Virus record (IMG/VR): IMGVR_UViG_3300042326_000371
Coordinates: 1 to 29,641 of that record
Strand: one strand, 5' to 3'
Source of the DNA: a virus
Length of the DNA: 29,641 bases
This document shows, in pieces, positions 26,108 through 27,620 of this stretch. The notes under the pieces were generated by a model that saw nothing but the letters and a program-made list of their open reading frames with translations, had not been told where the DNA came from and ran no database searches. The position numbers and the translations under genes were made by a program. The number at the start of each line of letters is the position of its first letter. Positions within the stretch are counted from its first letter, which is position 1.

Positions 26108-26401
26108 TTAACGGCTTACTGTTTTTACTGCAAATACTGCTGTGATTTTAGTAAACATCTGCAGCTGCTCATCGCTAACGCCCAGGTCAGCAACAAGGCC
26201 CTTGTAATCCACAACCTGGCGATTGCTGGCCACAACGGTTGCGCGATATAAATTGCCCTCGTAAGAGGTTAAGCCACCAGCAGTTGCTGCCTCTTTGATT
26301 TGGTCTTTAATGCTGTCTGCCTCTTTGGTCAAATCAGCAATTTGTGCCAACAATAAACCGAGGCGGTCTACTTGGGTGATTTGGATGTCGATTGGGTTCA
26401 T
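26108..26401 (-). CDS. hypothetical early protein, 97 aa
   Basis: A helical N-terminal half with coiled-coil character (LGLLLAQIADLTKEADSIKD) followed by a beta-rich end (YEGNLYRATVVASNRQVVDY, MFTKITAVFAVKTV). Small phage early proteins with this arrangement, helix pair plus beta hairpin, are widespread and uncharacterised. Start behind AAGAGAATAT within cassette copy B. Function unknown. Confidence 0.65.
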   Translation of the reverse strand: MNPIDIQITQVDRLGLLLAQIADLTKEADSIKDQIKEAATAGGLTSYEGNLYRATVVASNRQVVDYKGLVADLGVSDEQLQMFTKITAVFAVKTVSR

Positions 26402-26419
26402 ATATTCTCTTCGATAAAT

Positions 26420-26433
26420 GGGGCCGAAACCCC
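26420..26433 (-). promoter_or_regulatory. intergenic hairpin, copy B of hairpin-RBS cassette
   Basis: On the minus strand GGGGTTTCGGCCCC: four G-C pairs plus a U-G pair closing a UUCG tetraloop, then CATTTATCGAAGAGAATAT and the ATG of the 97-aa gene. It differs from copy C at only a few positions. Confidence 0.65.
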
Positions 26434-26439
26434 GGTTGT

Positions 26440-26631
26440 TTAAATTGGTGTTATGTCTAAATTAGATTTTTGTGCCAAAACTTCTCTAAGTTTTTTCATT
26501 TGATCAATGACTTTGTTTTGCTCTGATTCAGTAACATCATCAATCTCACGATCCTTATTTTTAATTGCATGGTACAAGGCATCGATTGCAACTGCGTATG
26601 CATATTCTTTTGGTGTAAATCCGTTTTTCAT
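26440..26631 (-). CDS. hypothetical small helical protein, 63 aa
   Basis: Sixty-three residues, mostly helical and charged: FTPKEYAYAVAIDALYHAIK then DDVTESEQNKVIDQMKKLRE. No motif known to me. The start is set by GGAGAGAAAAA as part of cassette copy C, and its stop is followed by copy B, so it is expressed as a separate cistron between two hairpins. Confidence 0.65.
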   Translation of the reverse strand: MKNGFTPKEYAYAVAIDALYHAIKNKDREIDDVTESEQNKVIDQMKKLREVLAQKSNLDITPI

Positions 26632-26649
26632 TTTTTCTCTCCGATAAAT

Positions 26650-26663
26650 GGGGCCGAAGCCCC
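26650..26663 (-). promoter_or_regulatory. intergenic hairpin, copy C of hairpin-RBS cassette
   Basis: On the minus strand GGGGCTTCGGCCCC: a five-pair stem closing a UUCG tetraloop, followed by CATTTATCGGAGAGAAAAA and the ATG of the 63-aa gene. UUCG loops make very stable RNA hairpins. The downstream bases up to the start codon are nearly the same as in copy B. Confidence 0.7.
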
Positions 26664-26668
26664 GTTAA

Positions 26669-26983
26669 TTAGTTCCAAGCGTGAACTGATTTAAAACCGA
26701 TTGGTGCAACAAAAACTGCGTGGCCTGTTTCGTCAACAATTACATCGCCAACTGAAAGTGAATGCATTTCGTCAATTCTTTTGATGTCTGGGTGATTTCC
26801 CATGTTGCCAATACGAAACACATCGTTTAATGAACCAGCTTTAATTTCAGCAACTGGCTTATACAAATCTTGCGCAGTCAAAATTGCTTTTACAGTTGGG
26901 TGAAATGTTGTATTGAGATATGTCTCACGATGAGCGTTGAATTGGTCATCTGACAAGTTGATTTGGTGTACTGTATATTTCAT
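26669..26983 (-). CDS. first gene of the leftward early operon, 104 aa, unknown
   Basis: The start MKYTVHQINLSDDQFNAHRE at 26983 follows CGGAGAGAAAA; extending it to the ATG at 27079 would run through the promoter and operator, so I reject that. The protein is soluble alpha/beta with a likely beta barrel-like second half (LSVGDVIVDETGHAVFVAPI) that recalls a small SH3-like fold. Being first in the early operon it may be made earliest and most strongly. No family recognised. Confidence 0.65.
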   Translation of the reverse strand: MKYTVHQINLSDDQFNAHRETYLNTTFHPTVKAILTAQDLYKPVAEIKAGSLNDVFRIGNMGNHPDIKRIDEMHSLSVGDVIVDETGHAVFVAPIGFKSVHAWN

Positions 26984-27026
26984 TTTTCTCTCCGATTTTG
27001 TTTCCCGATCAAATGACCGTAAAGTA

Positions 27027-27055: not shown

Positions 27056-27123
27056 CCGATTTATGCGTTTTTTTATCAAAATTAGGGAAAATACCTATAA
27101 AACTAGGGTAAACCACTAGAAAA

Positions 27124-27168
27124 ATAGGCGCTTGCCTATTAAAAATAGGCGTATGCCTACTTGCCTAT
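27124..27168. promoter_or_regulatory. array of TAGGC dyads (operator or iteron candidate)
   Basis: Dyad 1 is ATAGGC-GCTT-GCCTAT (27124-27139), dyad 2 is TAGGC-GTAT-GCCTA (27146-27159). Their centres are 21 bases apart, two helical turns. A half-site TTGCCTAT follows at 27161-27168 and repeats the right half of dyad 1. Looser TAGG-N7-CCTA and CTAG-N9-CTAG elements lie just before (27083-27118). The array sits immediately upstream of a candidate rightward promoter, so a bound protein could repress or activate it. Alternatively these are iterons for replication initiation. Confidence 0.6.
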
Positions 27169-27171
27169 CCG

Positions 27172-27180
27172 TGGTAATAT
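27172..27180 (+). promoter_or_regulatory. candidate extended -10 promoter of the structured RNA
   Basis: TGGTAATAT fits the extended -10 form (TGn followed by a -10 with four of six matches). No good -35 is present at the right distance; the dyad array occupies that place. Transcription would start near 27184-27187, exactly at the first base-paired GGGG of the RNA below. Confidence 0.35.
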
Positions 27181-27183
27181 ATA

Positions 27184-27342
27184 GGGGTCAGCAAGGTGGC
27201 ACTTGTTGGAATCTCTTTAAGATCAGCAACCCCGAATTTTTCGGTGGTGCGAAAAATGCTTGGAATTGGTCATTTGATCTAAAGAGGACTTATTCCAAGG
27301 ATGCCCTGCCAGGCCGCACCACCCAAGAGTTTGGGGTTTTTT
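27184..27342 (+). ncRNA. putative structured RNA with its own terminator
   Basis: Nested perfect or near-perfect inverted repeats form a rod: AACCCCGAA (27228-27236) with TTTGGGGTT (27330-27338), GGTGGTGCG (27243-27251) with CGCACCACC (27315-27323), and CTTGGAAT (27259-27266) with ATTCCAAG (27292-27299), closed by GTC/GAC. The outer stem runs into six T (27337-27342), as in an intrinsic terminator. GGGGT at 27184-27188 can pair instead with the ACCCC (27229-27233) of the outer stem, so two exclusive folds exist. No coding frame through it looks real. I do not recognise an RNA family. Confidence 0.6.
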
Positions 27343-27353
27343 GTTGCCTACTG

Positions 27354-27620
27354 ACCGTACTCCGCACGATAGTAATGGGCCTACATCGGCTGCGCGGAAC
27401 AGTAGATACGGTATCGGCTCACCACCAGATAACCGGAGCAGCCTGTCAACGAGGGACTGCGGAACTAGCCTAAGACATGGGTGATAGACAACTTAGGCTA
27501 GGATGAATCGTTGCCTTATGGGGCGCATAGGCTGGATTGTTTTACTAATCTTTGCTGGTGCTAAAGTGATCATGGCTATCACCCTTGGGTAACCTATGTT
27601 AAAAGCAAAGACAAACCCAA
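27354..27620 (+). ncRNA. putative second structured RNA or 3' part of a larger one
   Basis: Further helices follow without a gene: ACCG-TAC-TCCGC (27354-27365) with GCGGA-aca-GTA-gata-CGGT (27394-27412), enclosing CGAT-a-GTA with TAC-ATCG (27367-27388); CTAGCCTAAG (27465-27474) with CTTAGGCTAG (27492-27501); GCCT-t-ATG with CAT-AGGC (27513-27532); TTGGGT (27585-27590) with ACCCAA (27615-27620). The 17-base loop of the ten-pair stem contains GGGTGATAG (27479-27487), which can pair with CTATCACCC (27576-27584) as a pseudoknot. With the preceding RNA this would make a transcript of over 400 nt if the first terminator is read through. The rest of the gap, to 27674, holds only an AAAAGGAGAA ribosome site. 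Confidence 0.45.

Follow-up and report, generated by a model that had tools for sequence, protein, structure and literature searches.

A non-coding locus between two gene units

What is the structured RNA that appears to be encoded between the recombination and replication units of a freshwater-type phage, and does it act on the genes behind it or as a gene of its own? The locus belongs to an IMG/VR virus record (IMGVR_UViG_3300042326_000371), linear and 29,641 bases long, which is called the window here. Behind the terminase, portal and structural genes, a leftward unit encodes SSB, a YqaJ-type exonuclease and Erf; next comes a rightward unit with genes for a DNA methyltransferase and a replication-initiation-like protein, and a ~700-nt non-coding stretch separates the two units. 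The closest match of the terminase in the phage records searched, 71% identical, comes from an uncultured phage from Manatee Spring. The phage genome is larger than the record, since a further sequence (L006) connects the end of the window to its start via ~3.6 kb that are absent from the window. Between the leftward genes, GGGGCCGAARCCCC hairpins recur with shared flanks (26400-26440 and 26640-26670), and an imperfect inverted and direct repeat, AAAAATAGGCG..TGCCTA (27117-27167), which is replaced in many relatives, sits immediately upstream of the promoter described below.

A conserved fold built around a terminator helix

The original prediction, a highly structured RNA that ends in a terminator of the intrinsic type, was borne out. 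We call this element RNA A (27187-27342, plus strand); it spans ~156 nt from a probable start at GTCAGC to the end of the T-run, and is defined by a CM match and 63 homologues. The three nested inverted repeats and the six-T run seen in the prediction are all present, and correspond to the outer arm of helix P2, its inner arm, helix P3 and the T letters at 27337-27342. Comparison of the fold energy with shuffled sequence confirmed a structured RNA: the MFE is -68 kcal/mol vs -45.7 (sd 3.9) in 200 dinucleotide shuffles, none of which was as good (z = -5.68).

In the predicted architecture, a 5' hairpin, P1 (27189-27208, plus strand; CAGCAAG-GTGGCA-CTTGTTG), is followed by the terminator helix P2 (27228-27251 with 27315-27338, plus strand), which encloses a three-way junction with P3 (27259-27271 with 27287-27299, plus strand) and the hairpin P5 (27303-27314, plus strand; GCC-CTGCCA-GGC), and a pseudoknot completes the fold. 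The outer arm of P2 pairs 27228-27241 with 27325-27338, and its inner arm pairs GGTGGTGCG with CGCACCACC (27243-27251/27315-27323).

Homologues were gathered from viral contigs by scanning for 16-mers and motifs and by searching with neighbouring proteins, within a search that covered IMG/VR, one GTDB genome scan, and phage and plasmid records. This yielded 63 distinct full-length homologous sequences, extracted from IMG/VR, in four families or subfamilies: A (n=48), B (n=12), C (n=2) and D (n=1). The CM R1 matches the window at 27183-27342 with 177 bits, and a CM built from A-type sequences alone also detects families C and D and two B members at 24-47 bits; the link of families B and D to A consists of weak CM scores (24-28 bits) and a shared architecture, most B members being below threshold. 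Where it is found, RNA A occurs once per contig, on the sense strand. A full RNA A followed by the downstream element RNA B (see below) is also present amid phage-like genes on an Akkermansiaceae MAG contig (L210, JAGYIT010000017.1), which may be a prophage or a misassembly.

Homologous phages show the compensatory changes expected of a conserved fold. In the A4 alignment of 46 CM-aligned sequences, 96.0% of cells are paired over the 47 scored pairs of P1, P2, P3 and P5, and 36 of the 47 pairs have changed on both sides. The covariation score is 0.515 vs 0.191 in shuffled alignments (0/500 shuffles reach the observed value) and at most 0.129 when the structure is slid; A4 was fitted to the structure and its pair counts are therefore biased towards it, but the gap is much larger than such fitting should give. 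Double changes affect 4/7 pairs of P1 (98.4% of cells paired), 19/23 of P2 and 10/12 of P3, and the pairs of P5 are 100% kept in A4. The P1 loop (TGGC, 27197-27200) is moreover complementary to the P5 loop (GCCA, 27308-27311), and this complementarity is kept while the letters change, from TGGC/GCCA in A and C to TGAC/GTCA in B and CTTGG/CCAAG in D, as judged by inspection. We propose that the two loops may form a kissing contact in three dimensions.

RNA A does end in a terminator-like hairpin, and could thus be read as an ordinary strong terminator with incidental structure. The covariation of P1, P3 and the pseudoknot, together with the conserved position of the promoter, contradicts this reading, to which we give practically no credence.

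Scanning the window with Rfam 15 at gathering score matched no family, a relaxed scan gave chance-level matches only, and a tRNA/tmRNA search found none. A literature search returned no description of RNA A; the major ncRNA catalogues were outside its reach, so that an earlier unnamed description is possible. Queries from the window, L190, L195, L198, L117 and L112 gave no blastn match in cultured phages and plasmids, and an L090 query matched only the RNA B of MW202484, in which CM R1 calls no RNA A. This RNA B relative (L217:3913-4293, MW202484.1) is annotated there as a protein gene (UOF77725.1). Just upstream of it, a shorter RNA with a terminator carries the complementary GTAACGGT/ACCGTTAC and may be another RNA A variant that the CM missed.

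A putative promoter and an alternative 5' helix

An extended -10 element, TGGTAATAT (27172-27180, plus strand; TG at 27172-27173, hexamer TAATAT at 27175-27180), precedes RNA A. Its position is conserved: a -10-like hexamer (TATCCT/TATAAT/TAATAT/TACTAT) is found in the homologues ~6 nt upstream of the first letters of RNA A (GTCAGC/GTCGGA), and several homologues add a -35-like TTGAAC/TTGCAA/TTGACA 17-18 nt upstream of the -10. A generic promoter scan of the window did not flag this site. RNA A probably has its own sigma-70-type promoter, from which transcription would start at ~27187, a start that the original prediction did not contain. At its 3' end, a GC-rich stem is followed by a T-run, as in intrinsic terminators (T-run at 27337-27342, plus strand, behind a terminator-like site at 27322-27335), and a T-run is present after P2 in the collected homologues. 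Consensus and comparative evidence therefore gives RNA A a promoter and a terminator of its own, conserved as a unit, as in an autonomous sRNA.

The prediction also held that an ACCCC could pair either with a GGGGT at the 5' end or with the GGGGT of the terminator stem, in the manner of an attenuator. The 5' complementarity exists in the window but is not conserved, GGGGTC being found in 8 of 56 distinct contexts, and the 5' GGGG (27184-27187) lies almost wholly upstream of the probable start. The attenuator switch was accordingly not upheld, and of the two exclusive folds that were proposed, the idea survives with a different pair of helices. The 5' end of RNA A (GTCAG, 27187-27191) is complementary to CTGAC at 27351-27355 (plus strand), beyond the T-run. 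This helix, P0, can form at least 5 of 6 pairs in 56/56 contexts and all 6 in 48/56, vs 8.8% with 6/6 in shuffled downstream 28-mers, and the partner strand follows the RNA A subfamily (GTCAGC/GCTGAC or GTCGGA/TCCGAC). P0 and P1 use the same 5' strand and are therefore mutually exclusive. P0 can form only once RNA polymerase is beyond the terminator, and we therefore assign it to read-through RNA; as its 3' strand lies past the T-run, it cannot control termination as originally envisaged.

These observations bear on whether RNA A could be a cis-acting leader, that is, a conditional terminator heading an operon, which gates RNA B and the downstream genes with an efficiency set by the fold or by a bound factor. 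In the contexts checked, promoter, terminator, RNA B and genes are all on one strand; P1 and P0 are a supported pair of mutually exclusive helices, and the T-run behind P2 would suit such a gate. A conserved competitor of P2 is missing, however, as P0, coming after the T-run, competes only with P1 and the 5' GGGG is restricted to 8/56 contexts, and the downstream genes vary between phages. We consider a cis-acting leader possible, though the less probable account.

Both strands of a pseudoknot are replaced together

The main feature of RNA A, absent from the original prediction, is a 7+4 bp pseudoknot. Its first strand (27213-27224, plus strand; CTCTTTA a GATC) lies in a hypervariable linker after P1, and its second, complementary strand (GATCTAAAGAG, 27276-27286, plus strand) in the apical loop of P3. 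Across 50 distinct linkers, each an allele complementary to its own loop, the predicted duplex with the own partner averages -17.7 kcal/mol vs -8.8 kcal/mol with permuted partners (z -22.6; 0/100,000 permutations), and the preference for the own partner is also significant inside family A alone and inside family B alone. Among the 25 sequences of the window's subfamily, identity is 90% outside the pseudoknot vs 52% inside it, and 46 sequence pairs are at least 95% identical outside yet less than 60% identical inside. Judging from these alignments, the scaffold is near-constant across phages and both strands of the pseudoknot are swapped together from phage to phage. We know of no other RNA family in which one helix has had both of its distant strands co-replaced in dozens of alleles, and this co-replacement makes the reason for the difference between phages directly testable.

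We considered whether the pseudoknot strands act as antisense on the genome of the phage itself and rejected this, their matches being at chance level (7.89 nt to the own locus vs 7.86 nt to other loci, no excess). A 12-nt match to the pseudoknot loop at 27007-27018 was treated as incidental: the surrounding sequence is common to relatives with other alleles, and within the match only GGTCATT belongs to the constant side of P3.

Diversifying selection, recombination of alleles, or relaxed sequence constraint with compensation could each account for the way the pseudoknot varies. Under the first of these, the pseudoknot might be a specificity tag, by which RNAs of the same allele or a matched partner are recognised, resulting in an RNA-based distinction of self from non-self or in exclusion between related phages; we regard this as a long shot. 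An intermolecular pairing of linker and loop, with RNA A assembling with itself and each allele only with its like, would resemble the quaternary contacts of ROOL and GOLLD, in which covarying loop-linker contacts proved intermolecular (PMC12286853). Our comparative data fit pairing in cis and in trans alike, but the lengths of the helices seem to allow an intramolecular fold (P3 plus the pseudoknot is roughly as long as P2, by estimate) and RNA A is far shorter than ROOL or GOLLD, so that we find self-assembly more doubtful still.

A second structured RNA follows RNA A

In the window, RNA A is followed by a second structured element, RNA B (alpha type, 27353-27597, plus strand), which starts within ~20 nt of the end of RNA A in the contexts checked. 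Among 23 homologues, 24 of the 36 predicted consensus pairs of the alpha type show compensatory changes; the MFE taken alone is ordinary (z 0.19), and the support for RNA B is thus purely comparative. It likely also contains a pseudoknot, recognised by inspection, between GGGTGATAG (27479-27487) and CTATCACCC (27576-27584), whose strands co-change in relatives. Relatives with a broken ORF behind RNA B still conserve the element, which hence is not only a leader of that ORF.

Other phages carry other types of RNA B. The Rfam family Betaproteobacteria-1 (RF02932) matches the start of RNA B in L198 (9387-9509), L184 (673-791), L195 (3489-3610, minus strand) and the L207 contig; its CM gave no match to RNA A, its matches falling in the RNA B of L198, L184 and L195, and none to the window, RNA B included. 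This places Betaproteobacteria-1, an Rfam orphan, in phages, where it forms the second half of a modular RNA cassette. In beta-type RNA B, CNCCRAA and a later CACCAAA each precede the same short word (e.g. GGAGAA, GGACAG, AGTGCAG), which varies between phages; this direct repeat was seen in L195, L198, L161, L180, L184, L204, L207, L117 and L119.

The surroundings of the cassette vary as well. In the window, it is placed between the recombination and replication units, ahead of the replication genes, and the original prediction that the RNA precedes replication and methyltransferase genes holds there. Elsewhere the genes behind it are capsid, nuclease-like or PAPS-reductase-like ones: in L203 (from 4928 onward), RNA A and RNA B separate a T7-type capsid assembly gene from the major capsid gene, the cassette precedes PAPS-reductase-like genes in L208 and L192 and an Asp-hydroxylase gene in L195, and it is near nuclease-like genes in other phages. 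Since the downstream genes differ between phages, control of replication and methyltransferase genes is no general property of RNA A; its varied genomic position is as expected of a mobile, self-contained gene.

The closeness of the two elements raises the alternative that RNA A and RNA B are two domains of one ornate ncRNA of ~430 nt, whose first domain is closed by P0 and whose terminated form is a by-product. RNA B comes after RNA A and itself covaries, and P0 bridges the 5' end and the beginning of RNA B, tracking the RNA A subfamily rather than the RNA B type. A leader or a composite RNA would account for the ~20-nt spacing and the covariation of P0 across the terminator at least as well as a free sRNA does. 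On the other hand, a single long RNA would have no need of the terminator that is kept across homologues, and RNA B types unrelated in sequence are found behind the same RNA A. We deem a composite RNA unlikely.

RNA A as a candidate trans-acting phage RNA

The reading we favour, with about as much confidence as doubt, is that RNA A is an autonomous phage ncRNA gene acting in trans and representing a new family of phage RNAs. P1, P2, P3, P5, the pseudoknot, the complementarity of P0, the position of the promoter and the terminator are, as predicted elements, supported comparatively; transcription, the contact of P1 with P5 in three dimensions, action in trans and partial read-through are what we infer from them. 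The preference for action in trans, which the original prediction had offered as one option, stems from the same comparative evidence: RNA A has a promoter and a terminator to itself and is conserved as a unit, and both its position and the genes downstream of it vary.

Transcription would begin at GTCAGC from RNA A's own promoter and mostly halt at its own terminator, which would double as the central helix P2 of the fold. P2 would close the three-way junction, the apical loop of P3 would pair back to the linker after P1, and the loop of P1 would touch that of P5. Once terminated, the RNA would act in trans, either as a folded RNA or as an RNP. Some transcripts, a minority, may extend into RNA B and the genes behind it, and in these the 5' end would re-pair past the terminator, forming P0 and opening P1, so that the two products would differ in their fold. 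RNA A enlarges the set of phage ncRNA families by one whose comparative support is unusually strong and which is worth testing at the bench.

Comparison with known systems

The put RNA of phage HK022 is a structured RNA found where early transcripts begin; it works as a cis antiterminator and has no terminator of its own. Both put and RNA A are structured, and they are set apart here by description, by the lack of an own terminator in put, rather than by sequence. Terminator-type attenuators and riboswitches are, like RNA A, promoter-proximal structured RNAs that end in a terminator and have an alternative helix. Unlike in these systems, the alternative helix of RNA A, P0, excludes P1 and not the terminator helix P2, and no constant gene or pathway lies downstream. 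Betaproteobacteria-1 (RF02932) is a neighbour in the same cassette, another type of RNA B and not RNA A itself. ROOL and GOLLD are phage-encoded structured RNAs with pseudoknots and kissing loops whose function is unknown (PMC12286853). RNA A shares with them its phage origin, its high structure, a pseudoknot and, as proposed here, a kissing contact; it differs in having no Rfam match at gathering score and in its size, ROOL and GOLLD being described as much larger, with GOLLD members exceeding 800 nt.
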